Below are positions 25,971 through 36,221 of a stretch of DNA of 36,221 nt, in pieces. Origin of the DNA: an uncultured bacterium. GTDB lineage: Bacteria; Patescibacteriota; Minisyncoccia; Phycocordibacterales; PALSA-1337. The notes under the pieces were generated by a model that had not been told where the DNA came from, made no database searches, and saw nothing but the letters and a program-made list of their open reading frames with translations. Numbering within the stretch: the stretch's first letter is position 1; each line of letters begins with the position of its first letter. A program made the translations under genes and the position numbers. The stretch covers positions 1 to 36,221 of the forward strand of contig CAINCE010000070.1 of NCBI GenBank assembly GCA_903846945.1, given 5' to 3'.

Positions 25971-28130
25971 TCAATCAACATTCAAAATCTTCTCGAGAAC
26001 ATCCTTAGGGACTTCTTGGGGATTAGGGTCTAGGGGATAGGGTCTAGGGGATAGGGTATTTTCTACAGAGAACGATGATTTTGTATCTTTTTTGATTTCA
26101 GATTTGGGATTTTGAGTTTGTTTAGAATTTCGGCTTTCGGGTTTAGGATTTACATGGTTCCCCTTCTGGAGCACTGCCGCCAGAGCATTCTTGAGATCGC
26201 TAACATTCTGCTTCGTAGGCACTTTTGGATCAACTTTAGGTGTATGCAGATGATTTATGTGCGATTTAGGGGCGAGATTTGCGAGAGGGACAAGCTTCAC
26301 TGGTGGCTTTGGCTCAACAGCTTTTTGTTCACTATGTACGATGATTGGCGATGGTGCCTTGGCCGCCAGTGAAACTGGGACTGGGGTAGATGTCAGAGTA
26401 GGAGAAACTGAAACAGATTTTGGAGCGATCGGTGTTGATGGAGTTGCGATCGATGTTGGCGGCATTACGGTCGGCCTTACCTCTGATTTAATCTCAGGCG
26501 ACTTACCCATAACTCTAGCCAGCACATCAGCGAACGGCTTGTGGACCGCACCTACAGCTGGAATCTTTTCTGATATCGAAGTCGGCACTTTTAGTGTAGA
26601 TGCGGGTGTAGATACCGTTGTTGATTTTGAAGCGGACGCGGTAGTAGAAGTTGTAGTTGAAATATTCGAAGTTGTCGTCGTAACAGACGAAGCCGAAGCG
26701 GCGGAAGGAGTCGGTGCAGAAGTTGCCGATTTTGATGCGCCTGAACCTGAACCTGAAGCCACGCTTGTAGCTGGAGTCGCCGTAGCAGAAGAAGGGGTCG
26801 ATACAGAAGCTGAACCCGCCTTCGCAGGCGTCTTTGCAGCCACCACAGGATTATGAAACTTGACGACTGCTTCCTCAACTTCTGCCCTCGGTCTAGAGAA
26901 CTGTTCCCGCGAAGCGGCGATGATCTCCTTTACATACGAATGATCTGGGTGAGATATCGGTGGCAATGTCGTAGCAGAAAATGGTGCCGAAGATAGTCCG
27001 TCTATCATCAACTTTAGGTAGATCTGTGCAAAACCTAGATTAACTAGATCTTCGATGACGAACTGTGGAGCGAACTCCTTCTCTAGGAGCTCTGCATCAG
27101 TAGCACCAACTCGAAATGCTATCATCGTACCGACGTTACCGAACACCGCGGGACGCACGATCTCATCCATCTGCTCGATGTACTGGTGAGCTATAGTCAG
27201 GTTTAGTTTGTATTTGCGAGCTTCAGACAAGATATCTGCAAAAGAAGCATTGGCAAAGTTCTGGAACTCGTCCACATAGAGATAGAAGTTCGGCAACATC
27301 TGCATCGTCCTATCCGGCACATCAGCGCGAGACATGGCTGCGAGATATATCTTCGTCACTAGTAGACCACCGAGCAACTTCATATTTTCATCACCTATCC
27401 TTCCCTTTGAAAGGTTGATGATAACTATCTTCTTGTGATCGATAGCTTCACGGAAGTCGAACGAAGACTGTGACTGACCGATCATATTCCTGATGAGTGG
27501 GTTCGCAGTAAACTGACCGACTTTGTTCTGGATAGCAGGAACTGCTTCGGCTGCCTGCCTCTCTGTATAGTTAGCAAACTCTTTCTGCCAGAACGCCTTG
27601 ACTGAAGGATCTTTTATATTGTTCACCACCTCTGTTCGATACGCCTTGTCCGAAAGCATCCTGTTCACTCCGAGCAATGTCGCGCCAGGATATTCGAGCA
27701 ACGCCAAGAGTGTGTTGGTCAAGATGTATTCCATACGCGCAGACCATGCATCCTCCCAGATCTTCTTGAAGGTACTCATGAGGCCTGATGACACTAGGTG
27801 TCGCTTATCAGGGTCGACGGACTCCAGAACATTGAATGAGATCGGATGCTCGATATCGAACGGCGCGATGTATATGACATCTCTTATACGCTCCTTGGGG
27901 ACATATTCGAGCATGAGGTCGGCAGTCTTACCGTGTGGGTCGATGAAACACATCCCTTCGCCATTCTGGATGTCCTGGACGGCCATGTTCTCGAGCATGG
28001 TGGACTTTCCCATACCTGTCTTTCCGATGACATAGACATGCTTGGTGCGATCCTTGGCTCTGATGCCAAATCTGACCCGCTTGTTGCGAGCATCTGTTTG
28101 TGCAAAATATGTGATGCGATTTTCTTCCAT
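25971..28130 (-). CDS. VirD4/TraG-like type IV secretion/DNA-processing ATPase with long S/T/A/P-rich C-terminal tail
   Basis: KHVYVIGKTGMGKSTMLENMAVQDIQNGEGMCFIDPHGKTADLML (Walker A), LYVDEFQNFANASFADILSEARKYKLNLTIAHQYIEQM; tail from ~aa 440 low complexity. Confidence 0.92.
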   Translation of the reverse strand: MEENRITYFAQTDARNKRVRFGIRAKDRTKHVYVIGKTGMGKSTMLENMAVQDIQNGEGMCFIDPHGKTADLMLEYVPKERIRDVIYIAPFDIEHPISFNVLESVDPDKRHLVSSGLMSTFKKIWEDAWSARMEYILTNTLLALLEYPGATLLGVNRMLSDKAYRTEVVNNIKDPSVKAFWQKEFANYTERQAAEAVPAIQNKVGQFTANPLIRNMIGQSQSSFDFREAIDHKKIVIINLSKGRIGDENMKLLGGLLVTKIYLAAMSRADVPDRTMQMLPNFYLYVDEFQNFANASFADILSEARKYKLNLTIAHQYIEQMDEIVRPAVFGNVGTMIAFRVGATDAELLEKEFAPQFVIEDLVNLGFAQIYLKLMIDGLSSAPFSATTLPPISHPDHSYVKEIIAASREQFSRPRAEVEEAVVKFHNPVVAAKTPAKAGSASVSTPSSATATPATSVASGSGSGASKSATSAPTPSAASASSVTTTTSNISTTTSTTASASKSTTVSTPASTLKVPTSISEKIPAVGAVHKPFADVLARVMGKSPEIKSEVRPTVMPPTSIATPSTPIAPKSVSVSPTLTSTPVPVSLAAKAPSPIIVHSEQKAVEPKPPVKLVPLANLAPKSHINHLHTPKVDPKVPTKQNVSDLKNALAAVLQKGNHVNPKPESRNSKQTQNPKSEIKKDTKSSFSVENTLSPRPYPLDPNPQEVPKDVLEKILNVD
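26017..26059 (-). repeat. GGGTCTA/GGGGATA repeat tract inside the VirD4-like gene
   Basis: ggggattagggtctaggggatagggtctaggggatagggta; encodes TLSPRPYPLDPNPQ, like the PYPLN-P tracts in the SecA insertions. Confidence 0.7.
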
Positions 28131-31862: not shown

Positions 31863-32081
31863 ATGAATATCAAATTCACACATCATGCACAATTTCGTCT
31901 TTACGAGAGAAACTTCACTGTTGAACAGATGAAACAAGCAATCCTCAATCCAGATATTGCCAGAAGTACAAGTGATGGTAAGATAGTCAGTAAGAGGAAA
32001 TTTATCGATGGTACCATAGAAGTAGTCTATGTACAGAGAAAAAATACATATATCATTATCACAGTATATATTAGTAAATAA
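31863..32081 (+). CDS. DUF4258-like small protein (putative toxin-like)
   Basis: MNIKFTHHAQFRLYERNFTVEQMKQAILNPDIARSTSDGKIVSKRKFIDGTIEVVYVQRKNTYIIITVYI matches the HA-x-R-x-x-x-R...IxTVY pattern of DUF4258. Confidence 0.75.
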   Translation: MNIKFTHHAQFRLYERNFTVEQMKQAILNPDIARSTSDGKIVSKRKFIDGTIEVVYVQRKNTYIIITVYISK

Positions 32082-32094
32082 TCAATTAAATATT

Positions 32095-32316
32095 ATGACA
32101 ATAACTTATGACAAGGAAGCCAACGCAGCATACATCTATATAAATACACCGAATAACAATTTGGTATCTAAGACTGTTCCTGTATCTGACGATGTTATGA
32201 TTGATTTTGGTTCAAAGGGAGAGTTGCTAGGTATAGAGATACTCAATGCGTCAAAACATATTGGTACCAATAGAGAAGATTTTGCTCGAATTCGATTATT
32301 AACAACACAATCTTAG
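32095..32316 (+). CDS. DUF2283 family small protein
   Basis: MTITYDKEANAAYIYINTPNNNLVSKTVPVSDDVMIDFGSKGELLGIEILNASKHI: canonical DUF2283 YD-xEADAxYI...xxD-xxGxxxGIEILxAS pattern. Confidence 0.85.
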   Translation: MTITYDKEANAAYIYINTPNNNLVSKTVPVSDDVMIDFGSKGELLGIEILNASKHIGTNREDFARIRLLTTQS

Positions 32317-32396: not shown

Positions 32397-33668
32397 ATGA
32401 ACACAAACCCCATTATCATCTATGTAACTAGAGAAATCGAAAGGGCGCTAGGAATGGAACCAAGTGAATCCTACTATATCGTTTCCAATAAGACGAAATA
32501 TGGTGAAGGTGTACAGAAAAAGTACCCAGATCATGTCATCCTAGTTGAGCCGAACGAAAAAGGCCTCTTGGGCACTACTGATCTTTTGGCACACCAACAG
32601 ACTCGTGACCTGATCGTAAATCTTAAATCCAATCCGCCAGCTGGCGGAGTAAATCTTGTTCCTTCTCTACTCGTCTTCAAGAACACCATGCGTGTCGAAA
32701 CTTCCGCAAATCTACTCGATTGCAAACTGATAAATCCACCAGCTTCATTATCTGAACGAGTCGAAAACAAGATCACACAGATCAGGTGGTTGGACAAGCT
32801 CGGTATGAAATATTTACCTCCTCACGCAGTAAAGGTTGCCAAACTGATCACATGGAAAGGCGAGAACCCATTTATCATCCAGTGGAATCATGGACACACA
32901 GGCGACGGCACGATGCTCATAAAAACATTTGATGACTTGCGCGCCATCCAGGAAAAATTCCCTGAGAGGATAGCACGCATCAGTGGTTTCGTCAGTGGAC
33001 CTTCATTCACGGTGAATGCTGTAGTCACTCCGAACAGGATACTCATTGGCAATGTGAGCTACCAGATCACGGGCATGCAACCATTTACAGATGGTGCATT
33101 CAGTACCGTAGGTAATGACTGGTCTCTAGCAAAGAAACTACTTACTCCAGAGGACTCACGAGCTATCGAAGAGATGACCCAAGAGATTGGTCAGAAACTC
33201 CAGGCAGATGGTTGGAGAGGTCTCTACGGCATCGATCTCATCAAACATGAGAAGAGTGGCAGACTATTCCTCATCGAAGTGAATGCTCGCCAACCAGCAT
33301 CGACTACATTTGAGTCTTCCCTCCAAGAGAGGGCTCGAGAGAAAGGTGCCCGTGGCCTCACTACATTCGAAGCTCATGTTCGTGCAGTCTCTGGACTACC
33401 TATAGATCAGGATCTGATACAGATCGTCGATGGTGCGCAAGTCGTCCAGCGTGTCACCAAGAATATTCAGGACATCTTCGACGATATTTCATCTTCACTC
33501 AACAAAAAAGGCTTCGATACTGTCGCCTACCAGAACACCGGCTACAATGCCGACCTTCTCCGAGTCCAGTCTGAGGCTGGTATCATGGAAGACCACGGCT
33601 CATTCAATGCAAAAGGTCACGAGATCGCTGAGGCTATCAAGGGTGCACATATCAATATAGCAGTATAA
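32397..33668 (+). CDS. ATP-grasp domain-containing protein
   Basis: PFIIQWNHGHTGDGTMLIKTFDDLRAIQEKFPERIARISGFVSGPSFTVNAVV...GLYGIDLIKHEKSGRLFLIEVNARQPASTTFE. Confidence 0.85.
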   Translation: MNTNPIIIYVTREIERALGMEPSESYYIVSNKTKYGEGVQKKYPDHVILVEPNEKGLLGTTDLLAHQQTRDLIVNLKSNPPAGGVNLVPSLLVFKNTMRVETSANLLDCKLINPPASLSERVENKITQIRWLDKLGMKYLPPHAVKVAKLITWKGENPFIIQWNHGHTGDGTMLIKTFDDLRAIQEKFPERIARISGFVSGPSFTVNAVVTPNRILIGNVSYQITGMQPFTDGAFSTVGNDWSLAKKLLTPEDSRAIEEMTQEIGQKLQADGWRGLYGIDLIKHEKSGRLFLIEVNARQPASTTFESSLQERAREKGARGLTTFEAHVRAVSGLPIDQDLIQIVDGAQVVQRVTKNIQDIFDDISSSLNKKGFDTVAYQNTGYNADLLRVQSEAGIMEDHGSFNAKGHEIAEAIKGAHINIAV

Positions 33669-33674
33669 AAATAA

Positions 33675-33712
33675 CCCCCCGAAACCTTGCACAATGCAAA
33701 GCTTCAGAGGGT
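33675..33712 (+). terminator. Hairpin downstream of the ATP-grasp gene
   Basis: CCCGAAaCCTTGCAcaaTGCAAaGcTTCaGaGGG imperfect stem, no clear T-tract. Confidence 0.4.
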
Positions 33713-33772
33713 CAAAGATTCAGAAAGCCAGGGGGTCATAAGGACCAGAGACCCTAAGTATCCGAGCTAGAA

Positions 33773-34429
33773 TCAGCGGGAGCAGAACTGAAGGCTAGCA
33801 TGCCACTCATACGCGCCCTCGACAGAATAGGCGCTCAGGTACCAACCGTCGCCGACGAGGCGGCCGCTGACAGCCCAAAGGTTGCCGTCTGAACCGTAAA
33901 TGTAGGCAACGAGCCAACTACCGATCTTGTCATCCGTCGGCTTTGCCTTTAGTACCTGGAAGAAGTGAGCGAGTTTGATGTCCTCGTTCGCATCACCAAG
34001 TTCTGTACGAATACCGAGATCCTTGGACTTCTTCTTGAGTTCGTGGATACGAATGGTTGCCACCGGAACATCCGCCTCGATCAGTGGCAACATCAACCGT
34101 TTGAAATCAGGTGACATGTAGCCAACCTTGACACCATCGATGGTTTTACCTTCGATGAAGTGGTCGGCGGCCTTGAACTGTTGGGTAGCTATGGTCGATA
34201 CCGACGTTATGAGCTTGAGAAGTTTGGGTGGGGCAGGCTTAACCTTGCTTACCACTCCTTTCATCCAACACGCCTCCTTACGGAGAAATGCGATCCCATT
34301 CTTCTCCCAATGCGAACCATCGGACCCTGCCAACTTTCTGGAGAAGTCCGATACTAGACCGAGCCTATCTTTCGGGACGGTCACTAAAACTCGCAATAGC
34401 GAGCCGAGAATGTCGTTTTGTTTTGACAT
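33773..34429 (-). CDS. DGR target protein with C-terminal variable (CLec-like) region
   Basis: C-terminus NLWAVSGRLVGDGWYLSAYSVEGAYEWHASLQFCSR is the VR counterpart of the TR-encoded AWAVNGNLYDDGWNLNAYSVENANEWNASNQFCSR. Confidence 0.9.
   Translation of the reverse strand: MSKQNDILGSLLRVLVTVPKDRLGLVSDFSRKLAGSDGSHWEKNGIAFLRKEACWMKGVVSKVKPAPPKLLKLITSVSTIATQQFKAADHFIEGKTIDGVKVGYMSPDFKRLMLPLIEADVPVATIRIHELKKKSKDLGIRTELGDANEDIKLAHFFQVLKAKPTDDKIGSWLVAYIYGSDGNLWAVSGRLVGDGWYLSAYSVEGAYEWHASLQFCSR
33776..33878 (-). repeat. DGR variable repeat (VR)
   Basis: 103 nt aligned without gaps to 35985-36087; 14 mismatches, 13 at TR adenines (coding sense). Conserved 3' end TTCTGCTCCCGC is a plausible IMH. Confidence 0.95.
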
Positions 34430-34553
34430 AGTCTGTATCTCTTTTGAATGTTCTACCTATTCAGGCTAGTTTTCCGGCACATACCGGAGCATTTCCTGAT
34501 TCCATTTGAGGATATCATACTCAACAATATGAGTCAATGGTTTTACTACTTTG

Positions 34554-35570
34554 TCAAAAAATAGAGTGAAGGCAACTGATTTTTGTACGCATTTTCCACG
34601 TATTTCCGTGAGACAACATACCCAGATAAGACCTCATAGTTGCTTCAAATTTATCAAGGTCACCATTTTGCTTTATGGCTATATTTCTAAACATTCTCTT
34701 CTCTGTTGCCTTTCTAAGTATCAAGTGATCAATGAAATGTACCCAACCTAGAAAATCAACTCCAGACGCAAACGTCTGGATAGATACTTTGTCTGGATGG
34801 AGGTCTAGCTTCAGTTCGGCGTGCAAATATTGCCGTATCTCGATCAGGATCGATTCAAGCTGTACTCTATTCTGATCGAGGATTACAAAATCATCCGCAT
34901 ATCGGATATACCAACGTGCCTTCAATCGATGCTTGACATATTGATCGAATTCGTTTAGAAAGATGTTTACAAATAATTGCGAAGTGAGATTTCCTAGTGG
35001 CAGTCCAACACCACTTACAGTTGAATGAAAACTGCCAATGATTTGTTTAACTAACCACATGATATTTGCATCAGGAATATATCTTTCAAGGATGATAAAC
35101 AATGTTTGATGGTCTATAGAAGCAAAGAATTTTCTAATGTCACATTTCAAAACCCACACGGTCTTTGTGTGATCAAATGAAGCACGACGAGCAAATTCAC
35201 TAAACCTCTTGAAACCTCTGTGTGTACCTTTATCGTCTCTACATGAATAGGAATCGAAGATGAACGTCCTATCGAAAAATGGGTACAATTGCCGATACAC
35301 CGCATGGTGTAGCAATCGATCTCTAACTAAGGCCTTGTGAATATCTCGAGACTTGGGGTCATGAATCTTGAAATGATGGTATTCACCATGACAATATGAT
35401 TTATTATTCAAGTCATCATTTAATTCTCTAATGTTAAATAGAAGATTGCGGGTAAAATTTGAAACATCTATTTTGCACCTCTTACAATTCACAAACTCCT
35501 TCCATGCCGCAAGCAAATTGTTCATAGAAATGATATCCTCGTAACTATGATTGAACTGAACCCTGCTCAT
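34554..35570 (-). CDS. DGR reverse transcriptase
   Basis: WYIRYADDFVIL (catalytic YADD), GLPLGNLTSQLFVNIFLNEFDQYVKH (DGR-type GxxxSQ), VWVLKCDIRKFFASIDH, VDFLGWVHF. Confidence 0.96.
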   Translation of the reverse strand: MSRVQFNHSYEDIISMNNLLAAWKEFVNCKRCKIDVSNFTRNLLFNIRELNDDLNNKSYCHGEYHHFKIHDPKSRDIHKALVRDRLLHHAVYRQLYPFFDRTFIFDSYSCRDDKGTHRGFKRFSEFARRASFDHTKTVWVLKCDIRKFFASIDHQTLFIILERYIPDANIMWLVKQIIGSFHSTVSGVGLPLGNLTSQLFVNIFLNEFDQYVKHRLKARWYIRYADDFVILDQNRVQLESILIEIRQYLHAELKLDLHPDKVSIQTFASGVDFLGWVHFIDHLILRKATEKRMFRNIAIKQNGDLDKFEATMRSYLGMLSHGNTWKMRTKISCLHSIF

Positions 35571-35963
35571 AATACAAACACTACCCCACCTCGCAGTTTA
35601 TTGCCAGAATTTTTGCCAGTAGTGGAAAAGACTAAACTTCTCTATTCATCATGGATAGTGATACATCGGAAAATCCCTCGCACAGAAAGATTTGGCATAG
35701 GTTTACGAATTGATAATGCATTCCTCGATCTATTAACTGCATTAAGGAGAGCTTCATTTTCTGAACTCAAACAAAAGATACCAATACTAGACATAGCTAT
35801 AGTAAAGATTGATGACATACGGTTCTTCCTTCAAATCTTATGGGAAAATCGCCTAATGTCCAATGAACAATACGTTTCGTTCGGCACAGAGATCGAAACT
35901 ATCGGAAAGAATGTCGGTGGCTGGAAAAAGGAAATACTAAAGAAAACTTCCACACCAAAGTGA
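35547..35963 (+). CDS. avd: DGR accessory protein, Avd-like four-helix-bundle protein (true start may be TTG at 35601)
   Basis: LPVVEKTKLLYSSWIVIHRKIPRTERFGIGLRIDNAFLDLLTALRRASFS... resembles bAvd/four-helix-bundle proteins; located between TR and RT. Confidence 0.85.
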   Translation: MIELNPAHNTNTTPPRSLLPEFLPVVEKTKLLYSSWIVIHRKIPRTERFGIGLRIDNAFLDLLTALRRASFSELKQKIPILDIAIVKIDDIRFFLQILWENRLMSNEQYVSFGTEIETIGKNVGGWKKEILKKTSTPK

Positions 35964-36164
35964 TGCAGAAGAAAGATTTGAATTGCGGGAGCAGAACTGA
36001 TTGCTAGCATTCCACTCATTCGCGTTCTCGACAGAATAGGCGTTCAGGTTCCAACCGTCGTCGTAGAGGTTGCCGTTGACAGCCCAAGCACTTTGCACGA
36101 TATACCATCCGTGCAGTTCCCGATCGAATACTCGATAAGGATGTGTTGTGTGTATCAGGGACAT
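35937..36164 (-). other. Small ORF containing the TR (translatable TR; possibly a gene remnant)
   Basis: MSLIHTTHPYRVFDRELHGWYIVQSAWAVNGNLYDDGWNLNAYSVENANEWNASNQFCSRNSNLSSASLWCGSFL; reads in the same frame as the VR protein across the TR. Expression unproven. Confidence 0.5.
35985..36087 (-). repeat. DGR template repeat (TR)
   Basis: Coding-sense TTGGGCTGTCAACGGCAACCTCTACGACGACGGTTGGAACCTGAACGCCTATTCTGTCGAGAACGCGAATGAGTGGAATGCTAGCAATCAGTTCTGCTCCCGC; 8 AAY codons, all altered in VR. Confidence 0.95.
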
Positions 36165-36221
36165 AGAAGTCCTCCAGTATATCGTGTCAATTCTATTCTT
36201 TTTATGAACATCACCATCCCC

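Follow-up and report, generated by a model that had tools for sequence, protein, structure and literature searches.

We consider it likely that the diversity-generating retroelement (DGR) near one end of the window (the whole stretch of DNA analysed here, 36,221 nucleotides long) is of a Patescibacteria type in which the template repeat (TR) is carried on a separate RNA, with a structured leader 5′ of the TR and a short helix, here called the clamp, that joins the two sides of it. What can be read directly in the sequences is the adenine bias between the template and variable repeats (VRs), the gene order, the covariation of leader and clamp, the promoter-like and terminator-like signals, and the linkage of the RNA to the reverse transcriptase (RT).

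The TR (35985–36087, minus strand) and the first variable repeat, VR1 (33776–33878, minus strand), are direct repeats of 103 nt that align without gaps and with 14 differences, of which 13 are at TR adenines and the remaining one is a T to G change at TR position 23; as the TR contains 24 adenines and 79 other bases, the bias is pronounced (hypergeometric p = 2.9e-9). The original prediction had reported this alignment and base count from inspection, and both are reproduced by computational alignment and recount; our translations likewise agree with the ten residue changes that it listed and with its eight AAY asparagine codons in the TR. A second variable repeat, VR2, lies in a second target gene (VP2) on another contig of the same genome, and it too has 14 differences from the TR, of which 13 fall on adenines and one on the initial base of the TR. 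Eight adenines are altered in both VR1 and VR2, and at six of these eight the two VRs bear different bases, from which we conclude that they were overwritten independently; neither overwritten repeat contains a stop codon. The prediction that the locus is a DGR in which the VR has been overwritten in an adenine-specific manner is thus supported by a second VR derived from the same TR, and its description as active-looking seems fair where past activity is meant, given two independently overwritten VRs. The differences in VR1 and VR2 point to adenine mutagenesis and retrohoming having occurred at this locus.

The RT (34554–35570, minus strand) contains the predicted YADD motif and a GxxxSQ motif in the form GNLTSQ. 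A profile built from the RTs of its clade has its best match in the PDB series 8ub7–8ube (E 1.3e-58), which we take to be the DGR RT of phage BPP-1, while the best match to a group II intron RT has E 2.7e-34 and retron RTs are far weaker; in the RT tree the window RT is placed among loci bearing TR/VR pairs, and not outside the DGR clade, the outcome that the prediction had named as counting against it. The protein described as Avd-like matches NF033474 DivGenRetAVD with 60.9 bits (E 1.2e-16; cut-off 80) and Pfam bAvd with 39.0 bits (cut-off 40), both under the cut-off. Its gene (35547–35963, plus strand) is on the strand opposite to TR, VR and RT and fills the interval between TR and RT, with its 5′ end overlapping the RT start and its stop codon 21 nt from the TR. 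The locus therefore has the RT type, the TR/VR pair with adenine differences and the Avd accessory protein by which DGRs are recognised.

The target protein VP1 (218 aa; 33773–34429, minus strand) has homologues in related DGR loci and a C-terminal variable region, VR1 being located at the 3′ end of its gene. It has no match in Pfam or NCBIfam. Its AlphaFold model is confident over residues 70–218, but structural searches of PDB and BFVD give nothing significant; a single C-type lectin is listed at rank 19 (E 2.7), and without a significant match we do not claim a C-type lectin fold. A terminator-like hairpin follows VP1 (33672–33714, minus strand), and a similar one follows VP2. Convergent with VP1 is a gene for an ATP-grasp-like protein (32397–33668; NCBIfam biotin carboxylase, E 9e-19, far under the cut-off), and upstream of that are two short plus-strand genes (31864–32316), presumably resembling a toxin-antitoxin type pair of DUF4258 and DUF2283.

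The window is the entire contig C70 of a Patescibacteria-like genome (0.98 Mb, 94% complete, 77 contigs), whose relatives, as identified through the RT, are MAGs of Patescibacteria type. A phage origin of the window was considered and rejected, the matched genes being chromosomal (SecA, MurB, an O-antigen/glycosyltransferase cluster and a SAM methylase); a TraG/VirD4-like coupling ATPase (25971–28130) lies within the glycosyltransferase cluster of this Patescibacteria-type genome. Contig C70 ends 134 nt beyond the TR, a point missed by the original prediction, as were the antisense avd, the second target VP2 and the structured template RNA. VP2 with VR2, together with the rest of the leader and an extended −10 sequence, is on contig C17 (about positions 1–890), and the ends of C17 and C70 share a 12-nt exact overlap. 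When the two are joined the distance from the −10 to the TR is 231 nt and that from VR2 to the TR is 348 nt, the clade medians being 231 and 347; because of the identical overlap and these matching spacings we conclude that C17 adjoins C70, so that along the minus strand VP2(VR2) is followed by the leader, the TR, the antisense avd, the RT and finally VP1(VR1). A target upstream of the TR is the rule among relatives, and a target downstream of the RT is rare (0/79 loci in the larger set). We note that the second DGR on L068 (12749–15543, genome G033) has one VR upstream of the TR and one downstream of the RT, a layout like that of C17 plus C70.

Related loci were sampled from the relatives in 60 genomes, from a scan of GTDB genomes and from a scan of viral contigs. 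Where an Avd is recognisable, avd lies antisense between TR and RT in all 78 genome loci and all 16 viral contigs of the window's clade, and in sense upstream of the TR in all 46 more distant loci. In a tree of 138 RTs a single branch (SH-aLRT 99) parts all 70 antisense loci from all 46 sense loci, and the clade to which the window RT belongs comprises MAGs of Patescibacteria type together with some contigs labelled viral. A few of the latter (such as L165 and L181) apparently carry two TR/VR sets beside one antisense Avd and RT. The window locus does not have the BPP-1-type organisation, with avd in sense 5′ of the TR and a spacer running into the RT.

Loci of this clade share a conserved non-coding stretch that separates the target from the TR. 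The part of the leader within the window is at 36088–36221 (minus strand), with the remainder on C17, and RNAalifold analysis of 35 loci predicts a helix, P1, beside the TR that encloses two hairpins, P2 and P3, with compensatory changes in 26 of 31 pairs. In an alignment of 31 loci made by sequence only, double changes occur at 20 of 23 pairs, the share of cells that pair is 95.6% (75.8% after shuffling), and the covariation score is 0.727, compared with 0.310 for shuffled and at most 0.223 for slid alignments; an alignment of other loci fitted to the model gives 22 of 23 pairs, although fitting of this kind is biased in favour of the structure. We built a covariance model of the leader, R1, with the window left out of training. 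Its match in the window (36094–36206, minus strand; 56.2 bits, E 1.8e-10) covers the core of P1, P2 and P3 and is the only copy in this genome; in the R1 alignment the 5′ strand of P1 is at 36176–36187 and the 3′ strand at 36095–36106 (both minus strand), ending 7 nt before the TR. Rfam 15 yields no match at E ≤ 1 in the window region and none at the gathering score in eight related loci.

The R1 RNA is closely linked to the RT. Among the 74 matches listed for 98 further sources 72 have E ≤ 0.003, and no credible match was found in 63 loci with sense avd or no avd (best E 0.78). R1 is present in 91 of 286 genomes of the class, and in 72 of the 74 that are RT-positive; at 84 of 92 places with an RT of at least 52% identity an R1 RNA lies upstream of the RT and on its strand, the median distance being 541 nt. 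Thirty loci were fetched by R1 alone, and 28 of these have an Avd match, which in all 28 is antisense to the RT or the RNA (27 with the RT in view). Some R1 matches have no close RT on their contig (for example G100 C1 and the second copy on G258 C10), which may be due to the contig ending, to an RT that is more distant, or to a template RNA that stands alone. R1 does not match the leaders of the sub-clade typified by a second DGR of the window's genome, on contig C73, or the C73 leader itself; these leaders align among themselves.

A further pairing spans the TR. By consensus, AAAUGAAGA just 5′ of P1 is complementary to UCUUCAUUU just 3′ of the TR, and many of the loci that depart from this consensus do so on both sides, as in AAAGATGAAA/TTTCATCTTT, AAATAATAAA/TTTATTATTT and AATCTTGG/CCAAGGTT. 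Leaders pair better with their own post-TR sequences than with mismatched ones (z 5.5), and the best 7-bp helix has an excess pairing of 0.744, compared with 0.307 ± 0.057 (maximum 0.569; 0/200 as high) in permutations that each repeat the search for the best helix. In the window the clamp is weak, consisting of only 6 bp, with GAATTG (36188–36193, minus strand) directly 5′ of P1 and CAATTC (35980–35985, minus strand) formed by the last TR base and the following 5 nt. For the family, the minimum-energy structure that RNAalifold gives for the joint alignment of leader and post-TR sequences does not include the clamp. Clamp-like pairing is also seen by inspection, without statistics, in loci of the C73 type, as AGAAACT/AGTTTCT in three and AACACT/AGTGTT in a fourth.

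Signals that could define the ends of the RNA lie on either side of these elements. Just 3′ of the TR there is a terminator-like hairpin followed by TTTTCTTT (35947–35971, minus strand), which overlaps the last avd codons. When a hairpin with a T tract is sought within 80 nt after the TR it is found in 67 of 79 antisense-clade loci, with 2.4 expected from shuffles, compared with 4 on the opposite strand, 6 of 79 after the VR and none of 41 in the sense clade; in the first set of loci the figures were 24 of 29 with 1.0 expected. The stem ends at a median of +34 after the TR, a nearly fixed position (27–43 nt). At the other end, a putative extended −10 sequence (TGATATATT here, on C17), presumed to be recognised by the sigma factors of these hosts, is present in 36 of 77 leaders (47%; 4.3 expected); it ends 231 nt before the TR (IQR 226–241), and in 24 of the 36 the T tract of the target's terminator is just upstream of it. 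Synonymous codons of avd were examined for constraint of the kind that a spacer RNA on the opposite strand would impose, and there is no broad signal; excess conservation is confined to the last codons by the TR, at the site of the hairpin, and to scattered single columns, and because of the overlap with avd the conserved third positions near the TR could have other causes. An open frame around the TR (35937–36221, minus strand) was considered as a small gene and rejected, its supposed Shine-Dalgarno sequence and start codon (GGAGG..ATG) being the P2 hairpin of the leader. The signals at the two ends suggest a discrete template RNA of about 0.37–0.39 kb, with its own start and stop.

The genome as a whole carries four TR/VR systems, and in the other three the differences are at adenines in 18 of 18 (C73), 20 of 20 (C57) and 12 of 13 (C46) cases. 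The DGR on C73 (L006, 5500–8085) is complete, has an antisense Avd and belongs to a second sub-clade whose conserved leader is a different one; it carries the clamp-like pair AGAAACT/AGTTTCT. That on C57, alone among the four, has a sense Avd and offers an internal contrast to the window locus; its Avd and TR lie within a single open frame of 236 aa (L007, 6789–7499) that overlaps the RT start, and its target (L007, 4458–6758) is a repeat-rich protein of 766 aa with a VR of 184 nt and all 20 changes at adenines. On C46 (L008, 30–665) an RT frame stops just before the catalytic part and is followed by unrelated sequence, with an intact target (VR 12/13 at adenines), a TR and an antisense Avd downstream on the same contig; given these, the truncated RT may be the remnant of a neighbouring DGR.

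The following mechanism would accommodate these features, and in it we infer the transcript ends, the binding by RT and Avd, the priming site and retrohoming from sequence. The template RNA would be transcribed from a promoter of its own that follows the VP2 terminator; the 5′ leader would fold into P1 enclosing P2 and P3, and the RNA would run on through the TR to end at the terminator within about 40 nt after it. The clamp would join the leader, 5′ of P1, to bases 3′ of the TR, a pairing that would turn the TR into a loop and keep its 3′ end close to the leader. Leader and clamp may then bind RT–Avd and place the primer at the TR 3′ end, by analogy with the 3′ spacer of BPP-1, and cDNA mutated opposite adenines would replace VR1 or VR2. 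We also put forward, tentatively, the more specific idea of a retron-like template RNA, in which cDNA synthesis at the TR 3′ end is primed by a nucleotide inside the leader, perhaps one in the conserved UACUUGG by the clamp, the reverse of 3′-spacer priming in BPP-1, and in which neither synthesis nor termination of the RNA depends on the RT and Avd mRNAs. In the ncRNA of retrons (msr-msd) the structured part is 5′ and the template 3′, and the flanks are paired in the a1/a2 stem. The likeness is one of topology only, in that pairing of the flanks would place the template's 3′ end next to the structured part; the window locus is not a retron, as it has a different RT family, different genes and a TR/VR pair, and we do not claim priming from a branched RNA.

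Several other explanations have to be weighed against a separate template RNA. It is improbable that this is an ordinary DGR of the BPP-1 type, with the TR RNA co-transcribed with the RT, a spacer 3′ of the TR in the antisense-avd strand and an incidental leader: BPP-1 does operate in this manner (PMC12875486) and the entire TR–RT interval could be transcribed, but a hairpin some 34 nt after the TR in 67 of 79 loci and in none of 41 sense-avd loci, the lack of broad excess conservation at avd synonymous codons (a few by the TR excepted), and the location of the strong covariation 5′ of the TR all argue otherwise. The leader might instead be a regulator of transcription or translation of the TR transcript, attenuator or riboswitch-like, and not an element recognised by RT–Avd. 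That P1 ends directly at the TR, that the clamp spans the TR, that no conserved gene lies directly downstream on the same strand, and that the RNA is linked to the RT and not to one family of target proteins make this unlikely, even though structured leaders are often regulators and this one sits between promoter-like and terminator-like signals.

The hairpin after the TR could also serve in recognition by RT or Avd, and not as a terminator, in which case the RNA may run further. Its nearly fixed position (27–43 nt), directly after the clamp strand, favours such a role, to which we give a minor share of the probability, since a T tract follows it in the scored cases and its stem, like those of terminators, is free to differ in sequence from locus to locus; one hairpin could moreover fill both roles. 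There is little to recommend the view that the window holds a decayed copy that is no longer active: all components (RT, Avd, TR, leader and the two VRs) are intact, the window sequence has kept P1, and two VRs have been independently overwritten and are stop-free. In its favour are the truncated RT of one of the four DGRs of the genome (C46) and the lower-than-average activity given for Patescibacteria clade 2 in the main text of Roux et al. 2021 (PMC8144416). A separate template RNA with leader and clamp remains our preferred reading.

Among known DGRs, the main text of Roux et al. 2021 offers a close parallel. As described there, DGRs are significantly enriched in CPR/Patescibacteria, and clade 2 is found only in Patescibacteria, in a cellular and not a viral context, with targets that have no known domain and with measured activity lower than average (PMC8144416). 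The window DGR resembles this clade in host group, cellular context and targets without a recognisable domain, and, judging by these shared features, it probably belongs to it. That main text makes no mention of Avd, strand or orientation and does not describe a template RNA (PMC8144416). The DiGReF study, in which avd orientation is not discussed, noted that the RT and the template RNA need not share a transcript, and it described inverted DGRs in Pseudogulbenkiania and relatives, where the RT or the VRs are inverted, in contrast to the antisense avd here (PMC3521204). The antisense avd and the template RNA are new relative to Rfam and the literature compared, although earlier DGR surveys (2017, 2018) may hold a prior description. 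With R1 as search model such DGRs can be found independently of their RT, and a short template RNA whose ends are defined would lend itself to in vitro tests and to programmable diversification.

The window DGR resembles that of BPP-1 (mtd/avd/TR/brt) in RT family, Avd, adenine-specific TR/VR changes and a C-terminally variable target. In BPP-1, avd is in sense and 5′ of the TR, avd, TR and brt form one operon, and the structure for recruiting and priming is in the spacer 3′ of the TR (PMC12875486), whereas here avd is antisense between TR and RT, the structured leader is 5′ of the TR, a terminator-like hairpin comes right after the TR, and a clamp reaches across it. All mechanistic work on DGRs, as cited in the literature compared, rests on BPP-1 and its recognition of the template RNA through the 3′ spacer; if the DGRs of CPR/Patescibacteria do use a separate template RNA that has a clamp and a leader on its 5′ side, priming as modelled for BPP-1 would not apply to a large share of DGRs in nature.
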